This document shows, piece by piece, positions 20,471-38,596 of a stretch of 64,000 nucleotides of DNA (its first letter is position 1; every line of letters begins with the position of its first letter). Made by a program: the position numbers and the translations under genes. This DNA comes from Telluria mixta (GTDB taxonomy: Bacteria; Pseudomonadota; Gammaproteobacteria; Burkholderiales; Burkholderiaceae_D). The notes beneath the pieces are model-generated. The model did not search any database. It was given only the letters and a program-made list of their open reading frames with translations, and had not been told where the DNA came from. The stretch covers positions 248,001 to 312,000 of the forward strand of contig NZ_CP119520.1 in assembly GCF_029223865.1 (NCBI RefSeq). Direction: 5' to 3'.

Positions 20471-20490
20471 AAGTTGTAATAAATCAACAA
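20471..20490 (+). promoter_or_regulatory. Conserved element upstream of kinase 1
   Basis: A 20-base element beginning AAGTTG and ending CAACAA, with GTTG and CAAC as inverted arms, lies 23 bases before the kinase-1 ATG. It matches 16 of 20 positions with the element upstream of kinase 3 (26936-26955). A shared operator is the likeliest reading. Confidence 0.5.
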
Positions 20491-20513
20491 CGGCGTGCCG
20501 CCCGCGGAACCTG

Positions 20514-22364
20514 ATGTCGACGACGCTGAGAGACGCCTTTTCCGTGACCCGGTTCTCATTCTGGACCGGGGTCATGCTGTCGACGCTGGTCGGCAGCGTG
20601 CTCTACGTCGTCACCGCGCGCTCGATCGAAAGCGATGTGCAGGAGCGTTTCGTGCGTCATGCGAAATATGCGCAGTCCGTGATCAGCATGCGCATCAAGT
20701 CGTACACGGACCTGCTGCGCGGCGCCGCGAGCGTGCTGCAGAGCGGCGACACGATCAGCCACCGCCAGTTCCACGACTATGTGCAGGGGCTGCAGCTGGC
20801 CAGGAACTATCCGGCCGTGGACACGCTGAACTTCGCGACCTGGGTGCCCGACGAGCGACGCCCGGCGTTCGAGAGGGAATTCACGAGGGAGCTGCAGGAA
20901 TTCCTCGGCCCGGCGGCGCGCCCCGCCATCACGCCGCCGGGCATCCGCCCCGGCTACCTCGTCATGAACTATATCGAGCCGGACGCCAGGAACACGCGGC
21001 TGTACGGCCTCGACCTGATGGCCAACCCATATTTCCGCACGCAGCTCGCCCAATCGCGCGACGACGGCAAGCTGCGCGCGTCCGGCCGGCCGATCGCGGC
21101 CCTGTCGACGCCCAACGACAACCATCTGGGCATGCGCCTGCCGGTGTACCGGCACGGATCGCTGCTGACCAGCACGGAACAGCGCCACGCGGCCTATCTC
21201 GGCTCGCTCGGCATCGCGTTCAGCCTGCCCAAGTTGCTGCACGGCGTGATGGAAGAGATGCCGATCTCGGGCGTGCGTATGACCCTGTTCGACATCGGCC
21301 CGCGCGAAGTGATCGGAAACGATACGACGACCTGGCCCAAGATGCTGTTCGACAGCCGCGCCAGCGACCGCAACCCGGCGCCTCCGCTCGACGGCGGCGC
21401 CGACATGTTCACGGCGACCCTGCCGCTCGATTTCAACGGGCGCCCATGGCAGACCGTCTACAGCGTGCCGAAAGCCCGGCTCTACACGGATTTCGACGGG
21501 TATTATCCGAAGCTCATGATGGCGTTCGGCTTCCTCGGTTCGGTCCTCCTGTACGCCCTGCTGCACATGCTGACCTCGTCGCGCCGCGCCGCCCTCGCGC
21601 TCGCGCAGGAGATGACGAGCGAACTGCGCGAGAGCCAGACCAAGCTGCAGCTGTCGCACCAGAAGCTCAGGCGCCTGGCCGACCACGCGTACCAGATCAA
21701 GGAAATTGAGCGCAAGCGCATCGCGCGCGAAATCCACGACGACCTGGGCCAGAGCCTGCTCGCGCTGCGCATCGAGGCCGAGCTGCTGGCCGGACGCACG
21801 AAAGGCACGCACAGCCACCTGCACAAGCGCGCGCGCACCACGCTGCTGCAGATCGACACGACGATCAAGAGCGTGCGCCAGATCATCAACGACCTGCGGC
21901 CGACCGTGCTCGACCTCGGGCTGTCGGCCGCCGTCGAGTGGCAGGTCGACCAGTTCCAGAAGCGCACGGGCATCCAGTGCGACATCCGCGACGACCATGG
22001 CGAGATCGCCCTGCCCGACCACTGCGCCACGGCCTTCTTCCGCATCCTGCAGGAATCGCTCACGAACATTGTCCGCCACGCCAACGCCACGCACGTGAAG
22101 GTGGAGCTGCGGCTGCATGGCAACTGGCTGTCGCTGACGGTGCGCGACAACGGTTGCGGCCTGCCGCCCGGCGGGCGCAACAAATACGGTTCGTTCGGCC
22201 TGGTCGGCATCGAGGAGCGCATCGTCATCCTCGGCGGCACCTGTGCCGTGTTCAGCGAGCCGGACGGCGGCACGACCGTGATGGTATCGGCGCCCGTCGT
22301 CGGCGGGCCTGAACAGCCTGTTCTCGCGCAGCAGCAAGTCGGCTCGGGTTCGGCCGTCATCTAA
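20514..22364 (+). CDS. CHASE-type sensor histidine kinase 1 (HisKA_3)
   Basis: 616 residues: transmembrane segment 1 at about 16-34; a periplasmic CHASE-like sensor at about 60-265 (LARNYPAVDTLNFATWVPDERR is the characteristic stretch); transmembrane segment 2 at about 334-353; a coiled linker; a HisKA_3 helix pair with REIHDDLGQSLLALR (phospho-acceptor H408); and an HATPase domain with QESLTNIVRHAN and DNGCGLPPGGRNKYGSFGLVGIEER. This is a NarX/UhpB-class kinase that should phosphorylate a LuxR/NarL-type regulator; none is encoded nearby. The start MSTTLRDAFS aligns with the two paralogs. CHASE domains elsewhere sense small molecules or peptides. The downstream repeat gene is a likely partner or target. 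Confidence 0.93.
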   Translation: MSTTLRDAFSVTRFSFWTGVMLSTLVGSVLYVVTARSIESDVQERFVRHAKYAQSVISMRIKSYTDLLRGAASVLQSGDTISHRQFHDYVQGLQLARNYPAVDTLNFATWVPDERRPAFEREFTRELQEFLGPAARPAITPPGIRPGYLVMNYIEPDARNTRLYGLDLMANPYFRTQLAQSRDDGKLRASGRPIAALSTPNDNHLGMRLPVYRHGSLLTSTEQRHAAYLGSLGIAFSLPKLLHGVMEEMPISGVRMTLFDIGPREVIGNDTTTWPKMLFDSRASDRNPAPPLDGGADMFTATLPLDFNGRPWQTVYSVPKARLYTDFDGYYPKLMMAFGFLGSVLLYALLHMLTSSRRAALALAQEMTSELRESQTKLQLSHQKLRRLADHAYQIKEIERKRIAREIHDDLGQSLLALRIEAELLAGRTKGTHSHLHKRARTTLLQIDTTIKSVRQIINDLRPTVLDLGLSAAVEWQVDQFQKRTGIQCDIRDDHGEIALPDHCATAFFRILQESLTNIVRHANATHVKVELRLHGNWLSLTVRDNGCGLPPGGRNKYGSFGLVGIEERIVILGGTCAVFSEPDGGTTVMVSAPVVGGPEQPVLAQQQVGSGSAVI

Positions 22365-22416
22365 CCTTTCCCGTCGCAGCGAGCCTCGCCGTCCTCCCGG
22401 ACGATGCCTGCGCACG

Positions 22417-22430
22417 CCCATTCCCCTAGG
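22417..22430 (+). promoter_or_regulatory. 14-base motif shared with the galT upstream region
   Basis: CCCATTCCCCTAGG on the plus strand, 263 bases before the repeat-gene 1 start. The same 14 bases occur on the minus strand at 55453-55440, about 149 bases before galT, in the same orientation relative to the gene. Confidence 0.35.
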
Positions 22431-22472
22431 GTATCGCTACTTCATAAATTAAAATTCATATAGCGTTCTGAG

Positions 22473-22540
22473 CAACAAATGTTGTTTCTTTGACAAATAT
22501 CAATATCTCGATAGATTGCCTCAACTACATTGATTACGTG
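22473..22540 (+). promoter_or_regulatory. Promoter/operator block of repeat gene 1
   Basis: Contains CAAC-N4-GTTG (22473-22484), TTGACAAATATCAA (22490-22503, a TTGA-N6-TCAA palindrome whose TTGACA could be a -35 box) and ATTGCCTCAACTACATTGA (from 22515). The 25-base step from TTGA to ATTGCC is identical in all four copies in the window. A possible -10 is TAGATT at 22512-22517. The rest of the 328-base gap after kinase 1 shows no gene. Confidence 0.6.
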
Positions 22541-22638
22541 TAAGGCGCACTGACGAACCCAGCAACTCGTTGGCAGATGTCATCACGAACCTTGAGGAAA
22601 TACTGTCCAGCGCTGGCCCGACAAGCCAACACAACCAC

Positions 22639-22653
22639 AACTAGGGAAAGCAG
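22639..22653 (+). promoter_or_regulatory. Conserved 5' leader box of repeat gene 1
   Basis: AACTAGGGAAAGCAG, 40 bases before the start. Near-copies (CTAGGGnnAGCAG) sit at the same place before repeat genes 2 and 3, in otherwise variable leader sequence. Confidence 0.45.
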
Positions 22654-22692
22654 TCACAACGAGATCTTCAACAACGAATGAGGATGAACAAC

Positions 22693-23469
22693 ATGAACGC
22701 CAACAACCTGTTTAACGCCGTGATGCAACTCGACCTGGAGCCGATCAAGACGAAGCTGATGCACGTGGAGTCGGGCGAAGGCTGGAGCCTGGACAAGGCC
22801 AATGCCGTGGAAAAGGAATATCGCCGCTTTCTGTGCCTGATGAAAATGTATCCGGATGAATCCATCGCGCCCCTGGTCGATGTGGACACGTTCTGGCACT
22901 ACCACATCCTCGACACGATGAAGTACGCGGTCGACTGCGAGCAGGCGTTCGGCTACTTCGTCCATCATTACCCGTATGTCGGCCTGCGCGGCGGGGATGA
23001 CGAGCAGTTCCGCATCGACAGCGGCGAACGCATGCAGAGCCTGTACGAGGCCACGTTCGGCGAAGCCTATCCGGCGACGGACGCCGCGGCCTATTGCGCC
23101 GGCCCCTGGGACCAGCCGCAGGCACGCGGCGCCAAGCCGATCAGGATTGCCACCGCCTACTGCGCCGGTCCGTGGGACAACCAGGGCGCGGGCGCCGGCC
23201 GGGCCGCGACGGCCTACTGCGCCGGTCCGTGGGACAAACCGCACGCGCACAACGCCGTCAACACCGCCACCGCGTACTGCGCGGGACCATGGGACAAGGG
23301 CAGCGGCACCGCCTACTGTGCCGGTCCGTGGGACAAGAAGAAGGCGCTCGCACAGGCCGCAACGGCCTACTGCGCGGGCCCGTGGGACAAACGGGTGCCG
23401 GGCGCGGTCAATGCCGACACGGCCTACTGCGCCGGTCCGTGGCGTCCGGCTGCCGCGCTGAACATCTGA
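22693..23469 (+). CDS. CAGP-repeat protein 1 (seven AYCAGPW repeats)
   Basis: 258 residues from the ATG that aligns with the paralogs (ATGs at 22678 and 22684 are alternatives). Residues 1-125 are a compact domain with VDVDTFWHYHILDTMKYAVDC (W68-H69-Y70-H71) and FVHHYPYVGLRG; the WHxHILD...YxxDC pattern resembles bacterial relatives of the glycine-rich-domain protein (GRDP-like) family. Residues 133-250 hold seven copies of AYCAGPW, mostly preceded by Thr and followed by Asp-Lys/Asn/Gln, separated by 4-18 variable residues rich in Ala, Lys and Gly. No signal peptide or membrane segment. It could be a multi-core peptide precursor with the N-terminal domain as leader, or a Cys-bearing scaffold. 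Expression probably starts at the shared promoter block; a terminator follows. Confidence 0.9.
   Translation: MNANNLFNAVMQLDLEPIKTKLMHVESGEGWSLDKANAVEKEYRRFLCLMKMYPDESIAPLVDVDTFWHYHILDTMKYAVDCEQAFGYFVHHYPYVGLRGGDDEQFRIDSGERMQSLYEATFGEAYPATDAAAYCAGPWDQPQARGAKPIRIATAYCAGPWDNQGAGAGRAATAYCAGPWDKPHAHNAVNTATAYCAGPWDKGSGTAYCAGPWDKKKALAQAATAYCAGPWDKRVPGAVNADTAYCAGPWRPAAALNI
23089..23442 (+). repeat. In-frame AYCAGPW repeat array (7 copies)
   Basis: Seven coding repeats; codons vary between copies (TAT/TAC for Tyr, GGC/GGT/GGA for Gly, CCC/CCG/CCA for Pro) while the peptide is constant, pointing to selection on protein sequence. Confidence 0.95.
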
Positions 23470-23489
23470 CGACAGCCGCGTGCAGGCAC

Positions 23490-23518
23490 GCCCGCCCCGA
23501 TGTGAGGGCGGGCTTTTC
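23490..23518 (+). terminator. Rho-independent terminator of repeat gene 1
   Basis: GCCCGCCC (23490-23497) pairs with GGGCGGGC (23506-23513), then TTTT. Confidence 0.85.
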
Positions 23519-23575
23519 ATTGCTATGCCGGCGGCCGGCACCTGTAAAGCCGTCCATGCAATAACAGCGATATCT

Positions 23576-23626
23576 TTGAAGCATATCAATAACTACGTCG
23601 ATTGCCCCAACTATATTGACCACGTG
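23576..23626 (+). promoter_or_regulatory. Promoter/operator block of kinase 2
   Basis: TTGAAGCATATCAA (23576-23589) and ATTGCCCCAACTATATTGA (from 23601) repeat the layout found before the three repeat genes, including the 25-base step. Kinase 2 thus carries the repeat-gene type of promoter; kinases 1 and 3 do not. Confidence 0.55.
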
Positions 23627-23691
23627 CAACAAGCGTCGGCAAACCACTTTTGAGCTGCGACGCACGGCAGACAGGTGCAGATGGGATTTTC

Positions 23692-25545
23692 ATGGCAACA
23701 ACGCTGAGAGACGCGTTTTCGGTCACCCGATACTCGTTCTGGGTCGGTGCACTGCTGTCCTCGCTGGTCGGCAGCGTGCTGTACCTGGTCACGGCACGCT
23801 CGATCGAGAGCGACGCGGAGACCCGCTTCGTCAGCCATGCCCGCCACGCGCAAAGCGTCATCAATGTGCGCGTGAAATCGTACACGGACCTGCTGCGTGC
23901 CACGGGCAGCATGATCCAGAGTACCGACGTGCTGACCTACCAGAATTTCCATGAGTTCGCGCGCGGACTGGATCTGGCACAGCATTTCCCCGCGGTCGAT
24001 TACATCAATTATGCGGTGTACGTGCCCCACGAGCGGCGCGACGGTGTCGTCGCGGACTTGCGCAAGAACGTGTCGCGCATCTTCGGCAGACCGGTTGACG
24101 TGGATATATCGCCGCCGGGCGACCGGTCCTCCTACCTCGTGGTCGCCTTCGTCGAACCCGCACCGCCGGGTGCGCGTTACTATGGCGTCGACCTGATGGC
24201 CAACCGCTATTTCGGCAGCCAGCTGATCGAAGAGCGGGACCGCGGCGTGATCTTTTCGGCAGGCACCCCGATCCAGGTGCTGTCCCAGCCGAACAATATC
24301 TACCTGGGCATGCGGATGCCGGTCTATCGCGGCGCGGGCCCGATCAATACGGTCGAGCAACGCCGCGCCGCTTATGTGGGCTCCCTCGGCATCGCTTTCA
24401 GCGTCCGCAAACTCCTGCACGGCGTCATGGACGAGATCCCCATCGCCGGGCTGCGCATGACGCTGTACGACGTCGGCCCGGGCCTGGACGCGCAGGGCCG
24501 CGATGCATCCGACAAATTACTCACCCTGTTCGACAGCCGCGGCACCTCGGCCAACCCGACACCGGCGCTCGAAACCGGCGACGACGTGTTCACGACGACC
24601 CTGCCGCTCGATTTCAACGGCCGCCTGTGGAAGACCGTCTACAGCGTGCACAAGTCCGCGCTGTACACGGAGTTCGACACCTATTATCCGAAGCTGATGA
24701 TGGCGTTCGGGTTCCTCGGCTCGATTTTGCTGTACGCCCTGCTGCATACGCTGACCTCGTCGCGTCGCGCCGCCCTCGCGCTCGCGCAGGAAATGACGAG
24801 CGAACTGCGCGAGAGCCAGACGAAGCTGCAGCTGTCGCACCAGAAGCTCAGGCGCCTCGCCGACCACGCATACCAGATCAAGGAGATGGAACGCAAGCGC
24901 ATCGCGCGCGAAATCCACGACGACCTGGGCCAGAGCCTGCTCGCGCTGCGCATCGAGGCCGAGCTGCTGGCCGGACGCACGAAGGGCACGCACAGCCACC
25001 TGCACAAGCGCGCCCGCGCCACGCTGCTGCAGATCGATACGACGATCAAGAGCGTGCGCCAGATCATCAACGACCTGCGGCCGACCGTGCTCGACCTGGG
25101 CCTGTCGGCCGCCGTCGAGTGGCAGGTCAACCAGTTCCAGCGGCAAACCGGCATCCAGTGCGAAATCCGCGACGACCATGGCGAGATCGCCCTGCCGGAC
25201 CACTGCGCCACGGCCTTCTTCCGCATCCTGCAGGAATCGCTCACGAACATTGTCCGCCACGCCAATGCGACGCACACGAAGGTGGAGCTGCGCCTGCACG
25301 GCGGCTGGCTGTCGCTGACGGTGCGCGACAACGGTTGCGGCCTGCCGCCCGGCGGGCGCAACAAATACGGTTCGTTCGGCCTGGTCGGCATCGAGGAGCG
25401 CATCGTCATCCTCGGCGGCACCTGTGCCGTGTTCAGCGAGCCGGACGGCGGCACGACCGTGATGGTATCGGCGCCCGTCATCGGACCTGAACAGCCTGTT
25501 CTCACGCAGCAGCAGGAACACGGTTCAGGCTCGGCCGTGATCTGA
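23692..25545 (+). CDS. CHASE-type sensor histidine kinase 2 (HisKA_3)
   Basis: 617 residues, same architecture as kinase 1: N-terminal membrane segment, periplasmic CHASE-like region (AQHFPAVDYINYAVYVPHERR), second membrane segment, HisKA_3 with REIHDDLGQSLLALR, and HATPase. The C-terminal ~300 residues are nearly identical to kinases 1 and 3. The sensor has its own sequence (for example RIFGRPVDVDISPPGDRSS), so ligand specificity may differ. The start MATTLRDAFS at 23692 aligns across the family and follows GATGGGATTTTC, identical before kinase 3. Orphan: no response regulator nearby. Confidence 0.93.
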   Translation: MATTLRDAFSVTRYSFWVGALLSSLVGSVLYLVTARSIESDAETRFVSHARHAQSVINVRVKSYTDLLRATGSMIQSTDVLTYQNFHEFARGLDLAQHFPAVDYINYAVYVPHERRDGVVADLRKNVSRIFGRPVDVDISPPGDRSSYLVVAFVEPAPPGARYYGVDLMANRYFGSQLIEERDRGVIFSAGTPIQVLSQPNNIYLGMRMPVYRGAGPINTVEQRRAAYVGSLGIAFSVRKLLHGVMDEIPIAGLRMTLYDVGPGLDAQGRDASDKLLTLFDSRGTSANPTPALETGDDVFTTTLPLDFNGRLWKTVYSVHKSALYTEFDTYYPKLMMAFGFLGSILLYALLHTLTSSRRAALALAQEMTSELRESQTKLQLSHQKLRRLADHAYQIKEMERKRIAREIHDDLGQSLLALRIEAELLAGRTKGTHSHLHKRARATLLQIDTTIKSVRQIINDLRPTVLDLGLSAAVEWQVNQFQRQTGIQCEIRDDHGEIALPDHCATAFFRILQESLTNIVRHANATHTKVELRLHGGWLSLTVRDNGCGLPPGGRNKYGSFGLVGIEERIVILGGTCAVFSEPDGGTTVMVSAPVIGPEQPVLTQQQEHGSGSAVI

Positions 25546-25640
25546 CCCTCCACTTCCCCCTTTCCACGTCTTTCTCATGCCTGCAGGCTATGCCCTGTAC
25601 ATGGCACTACTACGTCTTTTACATTCATACCTAGACTTTT

Positions 25641-25711
25641 AAGCAACGAATGTTGCTTATTTGACAAATATCAATAACTTAACGAATTATTTCATTTACA
25701 TTGATCACGTG
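25641..25711 (+). promoter_or_regulatory. Promoter/operator block of repeat gene 2
   Basis: A perfect 7-base-arm palindrome AAGCAAC-GAAT-GTTGCTT (25641-25658), then TTGACAAATATCAA (25661-25674) and ATTATTTCATTTACATTGA (from 25686). This is the best-preserved palindrome of the set. The 305-base gap holds no gene. Confidence 0.6.
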
Positions 25712-25808
25712 TAAGGCGCTGCGGGAAATGCATAAAAAGTTGTCCGCCGTCATCACATGCATTAAGGAAATATTGTTCGTCGACAGTCGATTCACCGCTC
25801 ACAACGAC

Positions 25809-25823
25809 AACTAGGGATAGCAG
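25809..25823 (+). promoter_or_regulatory. Conserved 5' leader box of repeat gene 2
   Basis: AACTAGGGATAGCAG, 28 bases before the start, matching the boxes before repeat genes 1 and 3. Confidence 0.45.
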
Positions 25824-25850
25824 TATTCAACCAACAACATGAGGATGACA

Positions 25851-26732
25851 ATGAACACCAACGACCTGCTCAAAGCCGTGATGCAACTCGACCTGGAACC
25901 GATCAAGACAAAACTGATGCACGTGGAATCCGGCGAAGGCTGGAGCCTGGAAAAGGCCAATGCCGTCGAAAAGGAATATCGCCGCTTCCTGTGCCTGATG
26001 AAACTGTATCCGGAAGAAGACACGGCACCGCTCGTCGACGTCGACACGTTCTGGCACTACCACATCCTCGACACGATGAAATACGCCAAGGATTGCGAGC
26101 AGGCGTTCGGCTACTTCCTGCACCACTATCCGTACGTCGGCATGCGCGGCGACGACGACGACCAGTTCCGCCTCGACAGCGGCGAGCGCATGCGTGAACT
26201 GTACGAAGCCACTTTCGGCGAAGATTATCCAGGCGCCCCGGTCGAAGCCGCAGCGTCGCCGGTTTCCGGGGACGCCGCCGGCAACGGGACCGCATGGTGC
26301 GCCGGTCCGCGCATCGACGCCGCCGCCGGCAATGGCACCGCCTGGTGCGCCGGTCCGCGCGTCGAGGCCGCCTCCGGCAGCGGCACCGCGTGGTGCGCCG
26401 GTCCGCGCGTCGAGGCCGCCTCCGGCAACGGCACCGCATGGTGCGCCGGTCCGCGCGTCGAGGCGCAGGCAAAGCGCGCGGAAGGTGCCATCAGTGCCGG
26501 CACCGCATGGTGCGCCGGTCCGCGGCTCGAAGTACGGGCCAAGGGTACGCAAGCCGCCAGCGGCGTCGCGACGGCATGGTGCGCAGGCCCGCGCGTCGAG
26601 GCAAAAGTCAGATCCGGGGAAGGCGCCGTCAGCGCCGCCACGGCATGGTGTGCAGGTCCGCGTGCGGGCGGTGCCATCGGCGCCGCCACCGCATGGTGCG
26701 CCGGCCCGCGTGGGGCGTCCCGCGCCGCGTGA
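25851..26732 (+). CDS. CAGP-repeat protein 2 (eight AWCAGPR repeats)
   Basis: 293 residues from the ATG preceded by GAGGATGACA; upstream ATGs at 25839 and 25845 are in frame. The first ~125 residues differ from those of protein 3 at only about four positions and keep WHYHILDTMKYAKDC and LHHYPYVGMRG. From residue 148 come eight copies of AWCAGPR, each preceded by Thr and most followed by Val/Leu/Ile-Glu/Asp. Early copies are evenly spaced (linkers VEAASGSGT and similar); later linkers are longer and carry Lys/Arg. Trp replaces the Tyr of protein 1 and Arg replaces its final Trp in every copy, a uniform switch. Same alternatives for function as protein 1. Confidence 0.9.
   Translation: MNTNDLLKAVMQLDLEPIKTKLMHVESGEGWSLEKANAVEKEYRRFLCLMKLYPEEDTAPLVDVDTFWHYHILDTMKYAKDCEQAFGYFLHHYPYVGMRGDDDDQFRLDSGERMRELYEATFGEDYPGAPVEAAASPVSGDAAGNGTAWCAGPRIDAAAGNGTAWCAGPRVEAASGSGTAWCAGPRVEAASGNGTAWCAGPRVEAQAKRAEGAISAGTAWCAGPRLEVRAKGTQAASGVATAWCAGPRVEAKVRSGEGAVSAATAWCAGPRAGGAIGAATAWCAGPRGASRAA
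26292..26711 (+). repeat. In-frame AWCAGPR repeat array (8 copies)
   Basis: Eight coding repeats. The first four lie in near-identical 45-54 base units, suggesting recent expansion; the last four have diverged linkers. Confidence 0.95.
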
Positions 26733-26802
26733 GGTAAGCAGACGCTACCTCGTCCCGCAGTCCTCCTGGCGCGGCCGCCTTCACCAGGCAGCGCCAGCCT
26801 GA

Positions 26803-26832
26803 CCCGTCCGTCATCCGCGGACGGATTTTTTT
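26803..26832 (+). terminator. Rho-independent terminator of repeat gene 2
   Basis: CCGTCCG (26804-26810) pairs with CGGACGG (26818-26824), then ATTTTTTT. Confidence 0.85.
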
Positions 26833-26935
26833 GGCTCATACCATCGCCTTCCCTCGAAACAGCATAACCATCTTGCGTTCCGCGCCAGCGTCAACTGTTC
26901 GAACTGCCAGGTTCGCGACACATTATAATACGCGT

Positions 26936-26955
26936 AAGTTGCAAATAATTAACAA
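26936..26955 (+). promoter_or_regulatory. Conserved element upstream of kinase 3
   Basis: Begins AAGTTG and ends TAACAA, matching 16 of 20 bases of the element before kinase 1. TATAAT at 26924-26929 could be a -10 box, which would place this element at the transcript start. Confidence 0.5.
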
Positions 26956-26999
26956 TGCATAACCGGCGTGCGCCGAAGAGATGTGGAGATGGGATTTTC

Positions 27000-28853
27000 A
27001 TGGCGACGACGCTGAGAGACGCTTTTTCGGTCACCCGCCTCTCGTTCTGGGCCGGCGCACTGCTGTCGTCACTGGTCGGCAGCCTCCTGTACATCGTGAC
27101 GGCGCACTCGATCGAAGGCGACGCCGAGACGCGTTTCGTCAACCATGCCAGGCACGCGCAGAGCGTGATCAGCGTACGCGTCAAGTCATACACGGACCTG
27201 CTCCGCGCCGCGGGCAGCATGCTGCAGAGTACGGACATCATGACGCACCGCCGGTTCCACGAATACGTGCGGGGACTGGATTTGCCGCGCAATTATCCGG
27301 CGGTCGACAGCATGAATTTCGCGGCCTGGGTCACCGAGTCCGACCGCGTCGCCTTCATGGATGACCTGCGCGAGGAAATGCAACGCCATCTCGGCAAGGA
27401 CGTGCAACTCGAGATCTCGCCGCCGGGTCTCCGCCCCTATTATCTGGCGATGGCCTACTTCGAACCCGACCCGAAGAACCCCGCGCTCTACGGCATCGAC
27501 CTGGCCACCAATCGCTACTTCAGCAGGCAATTGATGGAGTCGCGCGACCAGGGCACGCTGTACGCGTCCGGCACGCCGATCCCGGCGTTGTCCACCCCGA
27601 ACAACATCTACCTCGGGATGCGCGCACCGATCTACCGCTTCGGCATGCCGGTCAACGACGTCGAACAACGCCGTGCGGCCTATGTCGGTTCGCTCGGGAT
27701 CGCATTCAACCTGCCCAAGCTGCTGAACGGCGTCATCGACGAGGTCCCGATCAAGGGCCTGCGCATGACCTTGTACGATATCGGCGCCGGCATGGATGCC
27801 GCCGGCCGCGATGTCACCGGACGCCCGCTCGCGCTGTTCGACAGCCGCGGCACGACCCGCGATCCGACGCCGGCACTCGACAGCGGCGACGACGTATTCA
27901 CGACCACGCTGCCGCTCGATTTCAACGGCCGGCCCTGGAAGACCATCTACAGCGTGCACAAGTCCGCGCTATACACGGAGTTCGACACCTATTATCCGAA
28001 GCTGATGATGGCGTTCGGGTTCCTCGGCTCGATTTTGCTGTACGCCCTGCTGCATACGCTGACCTCGTCGCGCCGCGCCGCCCTCTCGCTCGCGCAGGAA
28101 ATGACGAGCGAACTGCGCGAGAGCCAGACCAAGCTGCAGCTGTCGCACCAGAAGCTCAGGCGCCTGGCCGACCACGCGTACCAGATCAAGGAAATTGAAC
28201 GCAAGCGCATCGCGCGCGAAATCCACGACGACCTGGGCCAGAGCCTGCTCGCGCTGCGCATCGAGGCCGAGCTGCTGGCCGGACGCACGAAAGGCACGCA
28301 CAGCCACCTGCACAAGCGCGCCCGCGCCACGCTGCTGCAGATCGACGCGACGATCAAGAGCGTGCGCCAGATCATCAACGACCTGCGGCCGACCGTGCTC
28401 GACCTCGGGCTGTCGGCCGCCGTCGAGTGGCAGGTCAACCAGTTCCAGCGGCGCACGGGCATCCAGTGCGAGATCCAGGACGACCATGGCGAGATCGCCC
28501 TGCCGGACCACTGCGCCACGGCCTTCTTCCGCATCCTGCAGGAATCGCTCACGAACATCGTCCGCCACGCCAACGCCACGCGTGTGAAGGTGGAGCTGCG
28601 CCTGCACGGCGGCTGGCTGTCGCTGACGGTGCGCGACAACGGTTGCGGCCTGCCGCCCGGCGGGCGCAACAAATACGGTTCGTTCGGCCTGGTCGGCATC
28701 GAGGAGCGCATCGTCATCCTCGGCGGCACCTGTGCCGTATTCAGCGAGCCGGACGGCGGCACGACCGTGATGGTATCGGCGCCCGTCGTCGGCGGCCCCG
28801 AGCCCACCTTCTCCCAGGAGCAGGAGCACAGTGCCGGCTCGGCTGTCATCTGA
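27000..28853 (+). CDS. CHASE-type sensor histidine kinase 3 (HisKA_3)
   Basis: 617 residues with the same domain order as kinases 1 and 2. The CHASE-like stretch reads LPRNYPAVDSMNFAAWVTESDR; the transmitter has REIHDDLGQSLLALR and an intact HATPase. Transmitter DNA is almost identical to that of kinase 1 in some stretches and kinase 2 in others, as expected from gene conversion. The C-terminal tail (GGPEPTFSQEQEHSAGSAVI) varies more than the ATPase core. The start MATTLRDAFS lies at 27000 after GGAGATGGGATTTTC. Confidence 0.93.
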   Translation: MATTLRDAFSVTRLSFWAGALLSSLVGSLLYIVTAHSIEGDAETRFVNHARHAQSVISVRVKSYTDLLRAAGSMLQSTDIMTHRRFHEYVRGLDLPRNYPAVDSMNFAAWVTESDRVAFMDDLREEMQRHLGKDVQLEISPPGLRPYYLAMAYFEPDPKNPALYGIDLATNRYFSRQLMESRDQGTLYASGTPIPALSTPNNIYLGMRAPIYRFGMPVNDVEQRRAAYVGSLGIAFNLPKLLNGVIDEVPIKGLRMTLYDIGAGMDAAGRDVTGRPLALFDSRGTTRDPTPALDSGDDVFTTTLPLDFNGRPWKTIYSVHKSALYTEFDTYYPKLMMAFGFLGSILLYALLHTLTSSRRAALSLAQEMTSELRESQTKLQLSHQKLRRLADHAYQIKEIERKRIAREIHDDLGQSLLALRIEAELLAGRTKGTHSHLHKRARATLLQIDATIKSVRQIINDLRPTVLDLGLSAAVEWQVNQFQRRTGIQCEIQDDHGEIALPDHCATAFFRILQESLTNIVRHANATRVKVELRLHGGWLSLTVRDNGCGLPPGGRNKYGSFGLVGIEERIVILGGTCAVFSEPDGGTTVMVSAPVVGGPEPTFSQEQEHSAGSAVI

Positions 28854-28899
28854 ATGAATCGGCCTACTCTGCCTTTCCCATTCTGTACAGCGCCTAAAG

Positions 28900-28967
28900 C
28901 AATAAACGTTATGTAATTGACAAATATCAATAAGTCGCTAAATTGCCTCAAGTACATTGAGCGGGTG
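28900..28967 (+). promoter_or_regulatory. Promoter/operator block of repeat gene 3
   Basis: CAATAAACGTTA (28900-28911, a weakened form of the palindrome), TTGACAAATATCAA (28917-28930) and ATTGCCTCAAGTACATTGA (from 28942). A possible -10 is TAAATT at 28939-28944. The leader from this block to the ATG is about 40-55 bases shorter than in units 1 and 2. Confidence 0.6.
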
Positions 28968-29020
28968 TAAGACGCGTCTCTAAAAAATATTAGCGCAGCA
29001 GCCGATACACCACGTCCAAC

Positions 29021-29034
29021 ACTAGGGCTAGCAG
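29021..29034 (+). promoter_or_regulatory. Conserved 5' leader box of repeat gene 3
   Basis: ACTAGGGCTAGCAG, 27 bases before the start; third copy of the CTAGGGnnAGCAG box. Confidence 0.45.
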
Positions 29035-29060
29035 CACTCAACCATTCAACGAGGATGACC

Positions 29061-29786
29061 ATGAACACCAACGACCTGTTCAAAGCCGTGATGCAACTCG
29101 ACCTGGAACCGATCAAGACGAAACTGATGCACGTGGAATCCGGCGAAGGCTGGAGCCTGGAAAAGGCCAATGCCGTCGAAAAGGAATACCGCCGCTTCCT
29201 GTGCCTGATGAAACTGTATCCGGAAGAAGACACGGCACCGCTCGTCGACGTCGACACGTTCTGGCACTACCACATCCTCGACACGATGAAATACGCCAAG
29301 GATTGCGAGCAGGCGTTCGGCTACTTCCTGCACCACTATCCGTACGTCGGCATGCGCGGCGACGACGACGAACAGTTCCGCCTCGACAGCGGCGAGCGCA
29401 TGCGTGAACTGTACGTAGCCACCTTCGGCGAAGCCTACCCCGGCACGGCCAGCGCGGCGCAGCAGGACGCCGCCTTCTGCGCCGGCCCCCGCGAACAGGC
29501 AACGGCATTTTGCGCCGGTCCGCACAAGCAGGCGACGGCGTTCTGCGCAGGCCCGCACAAGCAGGAGACGGCGTTTTGTGCCGGCCCACACAAACAGGCG
29601 ACCGCGTTCTGCGCCGGTCCGCGCACGACACAGGACAGCGCGGTCAAGGCCGATACCGCTTTCTGCGCCGGTCCGCACGCCAGCGACGTGGCGTTCTGCG
29701 CCGGTCCGCACAAGGCAGCGACGGCATTCTGCGCCGGCCCGCACACGGCGATGAAGGCGGCAAACGCCGCTGCAACGGCCGCCTGA
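29061..29786 (+). CDS. CAGP-repeat protein 3 (eight AFCAGP[H/R] repeats)
   Basis: 241 residues from the ATG at 29061, six bases after GAGG; an ATG at 29055 is the alternative. The N-terminal domain is almost identical to that of protein 2. From residue 138 come eight copies of AFCAGP followed by His (six) or Arg (first and fifth), commonly then Lys-Gln. Spacing is the tightest of the three: four copies at about ten-residue steps (KQATAFCAGPH), so little linker is present. The C terminus is Ala-rich (MKAANAAATAA). No export signal. As in the paralogs the array has one Cys per repeat and no other Cys in it. Confidence 0.9.
   Translation: MNTNDLFKAVMQLDLEPIKTKLMHVESGEGWSLEKANAVEKEYRRFLCLMKLYPEEDTAPLVDVDTFWHYHILDTMKYAKDCEQAFGYFLHHYPYVGMRGDDDEQFRLDSGERMRELYVATFGEAYPGTASAAQQDAAFCAGPREQATAFCAGPHKQATAFCAGPHKQETAFCAGPHKQATAFCAGPRTTQDSAVKADTAFCAGPHASDVAFCAGPHKAATAFCAGPHTAMKAANAAATAA
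29472..29744 (+). repeat. In-frame AFCAGPH/R repeat array (8 copies)
   Basis: Eight coding repeats, the central ones in 30-base units. Phe is constant before Cys; the residue after Pro is His or Arg. Confidence 0.95.
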
Positions 29787-29803
29787 GCAGTCGCTCCAGT
29801 CCG

Positions 29804-29830
29804 ATCCGCCCCACCCGGGCGGATTGTTTT
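29804..29830. terminator. Terminator between repeat gene 3 and the HTH gene
   Basis: ATCCGCCC (29804-29811) pairs with GGGCGGAT (29817-29824), then TGTTTT. It may serve both convergent genes. Confidence 0.75.
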
Positions 29831-29839
29831 ACTGTCGGC

Positions 29840-30112
29840 TCAGGCCAGGCCGGCGCCCGCGGCTGCGCCGTCCGTCCGCACCATCAGCGCACGCAGTTCG
29901 CGGATGCTGTAATCGGACACCTCGTGCATGCGCAGCAGGATGGTCGCGCCGATCGGCAGGGTGTTGTGGCGGATCTTGCTGATCACGGGCGGCGCCACTT
30001 CCAGCAGGCGCGACAGCGCGGCGTCGTTCTTGAGCTTGAGTTTATTGATGATGGCGTCGAGCACCCGGTTCGGGTCGTACTCGGCGCCCTCGGGTATGCG
30101 TCTGATGGGCAT
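29840..30112 (-). CDS. Small helix-turn-helix protein, 90 residues
   Basis: Starts MPIRRIPEGAEYDPNRVLDAI at 30112; an in-frame extension to 30154 lacks support. Residues 27-60 (KNDAALSRLLEVAPPVISKIRHNTLPIGATILLRM) look like a Cro/CI-type helix-turn-helix, and the rest is short flanking sequence. Small proteins of this kind are common in Oxalobacteraceae. It converges on repeat gene 3, so it could be linked to the triplicated module, but nothing proves this. Confidence 0.72.
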   Translation of the reverse strand: MPIRRIPEGAEYDPNRVLDAIINKLKLKNDAALSRLLEVAPPVISKIRHNTLPIGATILLRMHEVSDYSIRELRALMVRTDGAAAGAGLA

Positions 30113-30258
30113 GTTTTTCTTTCGCTTGTGACATCCATGGGAAATTTTCCACAACCCATAGTGGGTTATGGAAAATCAGCCAGTTTCGGGAAATATAAGT
30201 TCTTTGTGTGGTCGCTCTACGGCGTACCCGAATGATACATGGATTAGTTGCGAAATGC

Positions 30259-37642: not shown

Positions 37643-38596
37643 ATGATCGTGACCGGCACCTTCGGTGCATCCCCCTATCGCATCCGCGACCTGCAGCTCT
37701 TTCGCGACATCGACGATCCCGCCGTCGCGCAGGCGCTCGCCGATTGCCGGATCGTGCGGTTGCCGCAGGGCGAAGCGCTCGAGGACGGCCTGCGTGCCCG
37801 CCTGTACATCCTGCTCGCGGGCAGTCTCGCCGTGGAAGGCGCGCTGGGCGAAGGCAATGTCGAACGCATCCTGCCGGGCGAAAGCGTGGGCGAGCAGTCC
37901 GTGCTGGACGATGCCGCCAACCTCGACGCCATCGTCGCGCTGGAAGACAGCGCGCTGCTCGTTATCGAACCCGACCGTGTGTGGCAATTGATCGACGGCC
38001 ATAACGGCGTGGCGCGCAACCTGCTGCGGCTGCTGTCGTTCCGCATCCGCGCGACGAACGCGCGCCTGCGCCGGCGCCAGAAGCTGGGCGAGTTCTACCG
38101 CCAGCTGTCGTTCAACGACGGCCTCACGGGGCTGTACAACCGCGCCTGGCTGAACGACGCGCTGCCCAAGCTGGTGGCACGCGCGCGCCAGGACAGTGGG
38201 CCGCTGTCGCTCGTGATGATCGACCTCGACCACTTCAAACGCTTCAACGACACGCACGGCCATATCGCGGGCGACACCGCCCTGTGCGCGGCCGCCGGCG
38301 TGATCCGCGCGGGGCTGCGTCCGACCGATTTCGCCGTGCGCTACGGCGGCGAGGAGATGATGGCGATCCTGCCCGCCACCCCGCAGGCGCAGGCCGTGAC
38401 GGTCGCCGAGCGCCTGTGTGTGCGCATGCGCGAGGCCGTCGTGTTCGACGACATGCGCCTGGCGCTGCCGCACGTCACCGGGTCGTTCGGCGTCGCCACC
38501 CTGCTGCCCGGCCAGGACGAGCGCGGCCTGATCGAGGCGGCCGACGCCGCCCTGTACCGCGCCAAGGAAGCAGGCCGCGACCGCATCGGCACCTGA
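37643..38596 (+). CDS. Diguanylate cyclase with N-terminal cyclic-nucleotide-binding domain
   Basis: 317 residues. Residues 15-130 resemble a cNMP-binding (Crp-like) beta roll (RLYILLAGSLAVEG, then PGESVGEQSVLDD). Residues 150-315 are a GGDEF domain: FNDGLTGLYNRAWLN, DLDHFKRFNDTHGH, the inhibitory I-site RPTD at 226-229 and an active site reading GGEEM (235-239) in place of GGEEF. The final Phe-to-Met change is mild, so c-di-GMP synthesis is likely. It may link a small-molecule or voltage cue to motility and matrix control. Confidence 0.87.
   Translation: MIVTGTFGASPYRIRDLQLFRDIDDPAVAQALADCRIVRLPQGEALEDGLRARLYILLAGSLAVEGALGEGNVERILPGESVGEQSVLDDAANLDAIVALEDSALLVIEPDRVWQLIDGHNGVARNLLRLLSFRIRATNARLRRRQKLGEFYRQLSFNDGLTGLYNRAWLNDALPKLVARARQDSGPLSLVMIDLDHFKRFNDTHGHIAGDTALCAAAGVIRAGLRPTDFAVRYGGEEMMAILPATPQAQAVTVAERLCVRMREAVVFDDMRLALPHVTGSFGVATLLPGQDERGLIEAADAALYRAKEAGRDRIGT

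Follow-up and report, generated by a model that had tools for sequence, protein, structure and literature searches.

The window analyzed here is a 64,000-nucleotide stretch of the Telluria mixta genome (NZ_CP119520.1, positions 248,001 to 312,000), and it contains an array in which three genes for CHASE sensor kinases alternate head to tail with three genes for a repeat protein, all on the plus strand (window positions 20514-29786). The repeat protein family is referred to as REP. Gene coordinates and Pfam domains bear out the three kinase/repeat-gene pairs reported in a first-pass annotation of this DNA, and we also identified two features absent from it, an FNR-type box before and a terminator-like hairpin behind each repeat gene. 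No REP match was found outside the array in the one-contig genome of 7.44 Mb at E ≤ 0.001. The locus may be viewed as three tandem copies of one conserved unit, a CHASE kinase with an A-aromatic-Cys/Ser motif protein, with the features as follows.

20514-22364, plus strand: kinase 1, with a type A CHASE sensor, two membrane helices, HisKA_3, and HATPase_c
22490-22503, plus strand: FNR/Anr-type box TTGACAAATATCAA ahead of repeat gene 1, by sequence match
22526-22531, plus strand: TACATT, 22 nt downstream of box 1
22678-23469, plus strand: repeat protein 1, with a GRDP-like head and a tail of 7 x YCAGPW
23490-23513, plus strand: terminator-like hairpin after repeat gene 1
23576-23589, plus strand: weaker FNR-type box TTGAAGCATATCAA, 9/10, ahead of kinase 2
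23692-25545, plus strand: kinase 2, with a type D sensor
25661-25674, plus strand: FNR/Anr-type box of repeat gene 2, with TACATT at 25697-25702
25839-26732, plus strand: repeat protein 2, with a GRDP-like head and a tail of 8 x WCAGPR
26804-26824, plus strand: terminator-like hairpin after repeat gene 2
27000-28853, plus strand: kinase 3, with a type B sensor
28917-28930, plus strand: FNR/Anr-type box of repeat gene 3, with TACATT at 28953-28958
29055-29786, plus strand: repeat protein 3, with a GRDP-like head and a tail of 8 copies, FCAGPH (6) and FCAGPR (2)
29802-29826, plus strand: terminator-like hairpin after repeat gene 3

The CHASE domain was detected in kinases 1 to 3 with E values of 5.9e-31, 2.0e-25, and 4.7e-24, respectively, and scores of 85.7-108.2 bits against the Pfam cut-off of 25, and HisKA_3 and HATPase_c were above cut-off in all three. 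Hydropathy analysis indicated that hydrophobic windows flank the CHASE domain, starting at about 14-20 and at 332-337, and the domain is predicted to be periplasmic. The best Foldseek matches of its fold were PcrK (E 2.1e-12) and AHK4 (E 2.9e-12), which the kinase also matched by sequence (E 3.5e-20 and 1.3e-11, respectively), and the transmitter matched the structures of DesK and VraS. The kinase is, thus, predicted to be a CHASE receptor with the PcrK/AHK4 fold and a DesK-like transmitter. No receiver domain was found in a Pfam scan of 24 neighbor proteins, rarer neighbors lying outside the scan. The nearest other kinase in the genome is 47% identical and adjoins a gene that, judged by eye, resembles NarL-type regulators. 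Other CHASE proteins in REP-bearing genomes (L194, L199, and L195 among our numbered loci), with sensors 35-40% identical to that of kinase 1, are hybrid kinases of the HisKA type that also contain receiver and Hpt domains, and one CHASE-PAS-GAF-GGDEF-EAL protein.

REP consists of a helical GRDP-like head of about 130 residues followed by a disordered tail that repeats A-[Tyr/Phe/Trp]-[Cys or Ser]. The head was modeled as all-helical (helices in residues 5-124) and the remainder as disordered, and no credible fold match was obtained for the head. Residues invariant in 75 heads include H26, W33, D67, F69-T77 (FWHYHILDT), D83, C84, H93, and H94. With the Pfam GRDP-like profile PF07173, REPs 1 to 3 scored 21.8, 22.5, and 23.0 bits around the cut-off of 22.7, the match being partial and confined to profile positions 98-143. 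In 109 tails, 1046 of 1222 aromatics precede Ser (612) or Cys (434), and Ala stands directly before 1040 of them. One single aromatic + Cys/Ser pair is used in 87 of these tails and only Cys or only Ser in 107, most mixed tails combining YS and FS. The first-pass annotation had counted its CAGP repeats correctly at seven to eight per protein (7, 8, and 8), but CAGP, after which it named the repeats, is a local version of the wider A-[YFW]-[CS]. When the copies within one protein were compared (105 proteins), the three core codons showed a proportion of synonymous differences (pS) of 0.60 and a proportion of nonsynonymous differences (pN) of 0.015, the latter being lowered by the selection of copies by motif; pN/pS was 0.18 for the next three codons and 0.63 for the spacer codons. 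Because pS is as high as 0.60 while the residues barely differ, the motif copies look old and individually conserved, with the spacers freer, and recent copying as the source of the repeat uniformity within a protein is ruled out by the same value.

REP relatives in public data numbered 2182 at E ≤ 0.001. Many tails outside the relatives of the window (P0123-P0231, L055-L112) end in an RPxL element (FYxxRPRL, GKGRPTL), which the three window REPs do not have. A wider GRDP-like family is also present in Burkholderiales (L121-L146), of which many members are of membrane type with a WH....C..FG core and Gly/Ser/Cys-rich tails (e.g., GGGCGGGGD). Small GRDP-like proteins at L148 and L120, whose tails are short and contain Cys and His (NCWHDCVGRCWHACSS; two CVHDCTPA units), may be further peptide-bearing forms.

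The pairing of the two genes was widely conserved. A REP profile search, of which the best 80 of 177 relatives were kept, yielded 77 loci from named records, nearly all labeled Oxalobacteraceae, with two labeled only Burkholderiaceae and one metagenome-assembled genome labeled Streptosporangiaceae that is probably mis-binned. In 76 of the 77, tblastn detected a same-strand kinase no more than 1.5 kb upstream of the first REP; in the exception (L085), REP lies 654 nt from the contig end. With the window included, a gene for a class I (E/Q) tRNA synthetase, likely glnS from its length and domains, adjoins the array in 71 of 78 loci. At this site, the synthetase is followed by one or more kinase-REP units, or by a single kinase with two REPs, and then by a small minus-strand gene (68/78). 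One kinase accompanies two REPs in 20 loci, not counting one further case in which a copy is broken. An N-terminal REP fragment that overlaps the next REP frame in one Massilia unit (L042:11468-12608) is apparently a broken copy.

Among 195 genomes of the family, 69 had some REP match at E ≤ 0.001, and we counted 62 of them (E ≤ 1.5e-17) with one REP each. Seven genomes with matches of 7.2e-6 to 3.4e-4 were left out (G001, G023, G054, G063, G085, G104, and G187); four of them (loci L144, L145, L137, and L146) carry membrane relatives with Gly/Ser/Cys-rich tails, and the G054 stretch does not match the REP head profile. In 53 of the 62, the kinase lies no more than 3 kb from REP in the same orientation, and in 7 it is divergent on the opposite strand, so that 60 of 62 have it beside REP among the kinase matches listed, the kinase list having been made by hand from the strong matches among these and not as a census of REP-less kinases. 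One of the two remaining genomes (G025) has a kinase fragment adjoining REP. Thus, rarity of the pairing in other Oxalobacteraceae, which had been set beforehand as a refutation of the proposed kinase-repeat module, was not observed. The seven genomes with divergent loci fall into three other genus groups, with five of them in the Noviherbaspirillum group; the spacing is 376-448 nt in six, and the seventh kinase, identified by its transmitter only, is separated from the gene by 416 nt in L189. Apart from the orientation, the synthetase site is also absent in the five that were read. Long opposite-strand frames overlap REP in L186 and L187 and the kinase in L091, so that gene calling by length and third-position GC content missed these genes, and public annotations may miss them too.

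The kinases of the window are mosaic, with transmitters 96-97% identical and sensors 52-65% identical. At fourfold sites, the differences in alignment columns 1-350 vs columns 351-600 were 49/118 vs 12/135 between kinases 1 and 2, 48/124 vs 6/137 between kinases 1 and 3, and 53/143 vs 10/136 between kinases 2 and 3, corresponding to a fall from 37-42% to 4-9% near residue 350. Since the step is also found at synonymous sites, it reflects sequence exchange, as the first-pass annotation had proposed, and not only selection. In nine multi-unit genomes, the sensors form four supported types, A to D, across species (supports of 99/96, 100/99, 95/99, and 100/99), whereas the transmitters, in a poorly resolved tree, do not follow these types; positions that are constant inside each of the four types and tell the types apart numbered 11 of 291 in the sensor and 0 of 232 in the transmitter.

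The REP heads behave in part like the transmitters. The heads of units 2 and 3 have a pS of 0.08, compared with at least 0.21 against the heads of other genomes, bar one at 0.19. The two heads of a genome pair with each other in four of six genomes with two B-D units (window, 0.08; L036, 0.04; L039, 0.06; L045 with L048, 0.04), and those of two sister species (L037, 0.08; L038, 0.18) mix with each other, with L038 nearer to L037 than to itself. The type A heads form a clade of their own and differ from the other heads of the same genome by 0.30-0.39 (window, L036, L042, L043, and L045, where both were read). Taken together, the sequence comparisons indicate that gene conversion homogenized the kinase transmitters along with the unit 2 and unit 3 heads, and the sensor types, the head comparison, and the fourfold-site step support the earlier idea of common signaling with diversified recognition.

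In the multi-unit Massilia relatives, the tail type was found to match the sensor type in every readable case, as the first-pass annotation had expected of a sensor-motif correlation. Type A sensors go with YCAGPW tails in 5/5 (plus one partial kinase outside the tree), type B with FCA[GS]P in 4/4, type C with YCA[GS]PR in 6/6, and type D with WCAGP in 3/3, two further type D kinases having a REP cut by the contig end. The partial correlation between sensor distance and tail difference was 0.629 in the multi-unit genomes and 0.256 (pair) or 0.146 (aromatic) across all 83 units, each with p of 0.001 from permuted labels without correction for the tree.

The FNR/Anr consensus is TTGAT-N4-ATCAA, and a class II box is centered at −41.5. 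TTGACAAATATCAA matches this consensus at 9 of 10 positions, and the 7.44-Mb genome has exactly three copies of it, one ahead of each REP. TTGAYN4RTCAA was found 3 times in the window compared with 0.08 expected, and TACATT lies exactly 22 nt past the box in all three units, which places the box center at −41.5 if TACATT is the −10 element. The stretch around the weaker box upstream of kinase 2 is 67% like the repeat-gene promoter. A box scoring at least 9 of 10 was present in 67 of 111 REP upstreams, compared with 19 of 2220 mononucleotide shuffles. With gene calls, the frequencies were 54/105 for REP, 13/87 for the kinase, 2/68 for the small neighbor gene, 0/523 for ten other conserved neighbor families, 15/383 for other genes of the loci, and 0/35 for other window genes; the related loci in these counts are not independent, although the middle four bases and the flanks do vary. 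The divergent loci L185-L189 have boxes scoring 10, 9, 8, 9, and 10 between kinase and REP. Furthermore, among the proteins of the genome is a Crp/FNR-family member that carries a CxxCx5C cluster near its start. Thus, REP is likely made at low oxygen from a predicted FNR/Anr-type promoter, and the box alone would fit either oxygen or nitric oxide as the signal of the predicted switch.

As for the surroundings, the small minus-strand gene (29840-30154), convergent with the last repeat gene, has no Pfam match and by eye resembles a small DNA-binding protein. In 53 of 78 loci, a gene for a cyclic-nucleotide-binding GGDEF protein lies in the vicinity (37643-38593, plus strand, in the window), and a gene for an MbnB/TglH/ChrH-type protein (PF05114; G000:C1:209194-209976, minus strand), one of two in the genome, lies about 59 kb from the array.

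These findings may be accommodated if the tail, or peptides from it, is the oxygen-gated input of the neighboring kinase, or part of it, with a shared output, a reading that we favor tentatively and with somewhat less than even confidence. At low oxygen, the predicted FNR/Anr-type promoter would drive REP production, the tail would be cut or displayed, and the material would reach the periplasmic CHASE domain, where the aromatic and its flanks may determine which sensor responds. The three kinases would then feed one unlinked NarL-type response regulator. One shared regulator is expected because the transmitters are homogenized, and with such a regulator, the match of each sensor to its own tail makes sense as an input and not as a channel-specific output. 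A more ambitious version, which is possible but on balance doubtful, is an oxygen-gated self-communication of Gram-negative bacteria, in which peptides from GRDP-headed precursors would be read by dedicated CHASE kinases and in which Massilia would have multiplied the channels, with sensor and peptide drifting together and gene conversion keeping the signaling and precursor parts alike.

Several observations weigh against the tail as kinase input. By hydropathy, neither an export signal nor a membrane segment was recognized in REP, with a top 17-residue mean of 1.34 in the first 60 residues (n = 110), leader peptides of dedicated transporters being outside such an analysis. Known CHASE ligands are small molecules, namely cytokinins for AHK4 and PcrK (PMC7072313). 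A kinase of this kind, CHASE-PAS-HisKA_3 in its domains, is present in three Noviherbaspirillum-group genomes (G081, G100, and G128) with no REP beside it and no REP match in the genome, so the kinase may have another ligand; the best boxes before these kinases scored 8, none, and none. No box of at least 9 was present in 44 of the 111 REP upstreams. Outside the multi-unit genomes, the covariation of sensor and motif was very weak (partial r of 0.108 for the pair and 0.093 for the aromatic, p of 0.001 in the same permutation test), with almost equal means of 0.599 and 0.616 in the largest bin. The other refutation set beforehand, a lack of correlation between sensor and motif, has, thus, a mixed outcome. 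Because units are inherited whole, the type matching is partly linkage, and gene conversion in the middle of a unit leaves the linkage of its flanks unbroken; sensor and tail have, thus, both been kept diverse, which does not in itself establish contact. Finally, the aromatics differ in 14 of the 20 loci with one kinase and two REPs, which contradicts a strict rule of one channel per unit. The three parallel channels suggested by the first-pass annotation, therefore, agree with the matched types in the multi-unit genomes but not as a strict one-to-one scheme, and its interpretation as a whole is partly supported.

The alternative that fares best, which we consider somewhat unlikely, is that REP is an output, that is, a cytoplasmic low-oxygen effector under FNR and the regulator of the kinase, with the kinase sensing an unrelated small molecule. 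The lack of an export signal, the separate promoter box of the REP gene inside the pair, the three kinases without REP, and the kinases that accompany two REPs are all consistent with it; however, per-unit outputs make little sense if the homogenized transmitters imply a common regulator, and the match between sensor and tail types is left unexplained.

Less probable still is a role for REP as a multi-core precursor, in which the motifs, with Cys/Ser beside an aromatic, would undergo chemical modification, for example cyclization, by the head or by an unlinked enzyme, with the kinase sensing or controlling the small products. The tails do contain repeated cores, as in multi-core precursors of ribosomally synthesized and post-translationally modified peptides (RiPPs), and these A-aromatic-Cys/Ser cores keep their residues beside freer spacers while Cys and Ser exchange at one site (434 and 612, respectively, after 1222 aromatics). 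The invariant residues of the head also fit this idea (H26, FWHYHILDT, D83, C84, H93, and H94 in 75 sequences), as does a weak match of REP 2 to the thiovarsolin family NF033878 (24.1 bits, below the cut-off of 35), to which REPs 1 and 3 do not match. Elsewhere in the genome there are matches of the YcaO (one), MbnB/TglH (two), and SPASM (one) types, but none of these four genes is linked to the array, the head has no credible fold match, and the Pfam scan of the 24 neighbor proteins, with other enzyme classes and rarer neighbors outside its range, revealed no peptide-modifying enzyme.

It is very unlikely that the tail is a sticker-and-spacer array that forms condensates or binds partners whole, with no peptide released and an indirect link to the kinase: its spaced aromatics in a disordered Ala/Ser/Thr/Gly/Pro-rich tail would suit this, but condensation alone requires neither the single aromatic + Cys/Ser pair of 87/109 tails nor a tail identity that follows the sensor type in multi-unit genomes. 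Plain linkage, with the pair merely traveling with the synthetase gene that adjoins it in 71/78 loci and having no joint function, is hardly credible because pairing and box persist divergently at other sites in other genera.

Few bacterial CHASE kinases have a known ligand, PcrK being one case, and a conserved neighbor with a tail code readable from sequence offers a swappable candidate input for such a kinase. If the tail is this input, a function and a link to low oxygen would be gained for a protein family of about two thousand relatives, and one genome would display recognition diversifying while gene conversion holds the output common. No published description of the pair, the A-aromatic-[CS] tail code, or its coupling to the sensor type was found in the open-licence literature searched.

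In comparison with known systems, the kinases share the CHASE sensor fold with PcrK of Xanthomonas (PDB 6k62) and AHK4 of Arabidopsis (3t4j/3t4k), but with regard to cytokinin reception, the likeness is of fold only. The transmitter here is of HisKA_3/DesK type, no receiver domain or adjacent regulator was found, and a REP gene lies alongside. They resemble HisKA_3 kinases of the DesK/VraS type in the transmitter and differ in the periplasmic CHASE input and in being orphans here. GRDP-like proteins (PF07173) include plant GRDP1/2, and the bacterial membrane forms have Gly/Cys-rich tails; REP shares with the family the WH....D...C..FG..H core in the head and a low-complexity tail after it, but it is soluble, matches partially around the cut-off, and keeps its A-aromatic-[CS] motifs copy by copy. 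In carrying many near-identical short units with spacers in one protein, REP is like the Kex2-processed repeat proteins of fungi and the RiPPs of plants, and unlike them, it is bacterial, without a secretion signal or known protease sites, and paired with a kinase. In the Agr and Com systems of Gram-positive bacteria, the gene for a peptide pheromone lies beside that of its receptor kinase, and there are specificity groups, single-core precursors, dedicated exporters, and an adjacent regulator. A single-core precursor, a dedicated exporter, and an adjacent regulator were not seen at the REP loci, which nevertheless resemble Agr and Com in the candidate ligand gene beside a receptor kinase and in the specificity groups. 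The parts of the system, namely the CHASE kinase, the multi-copy motif protein, and the FNR promoter, are each of a known kind.

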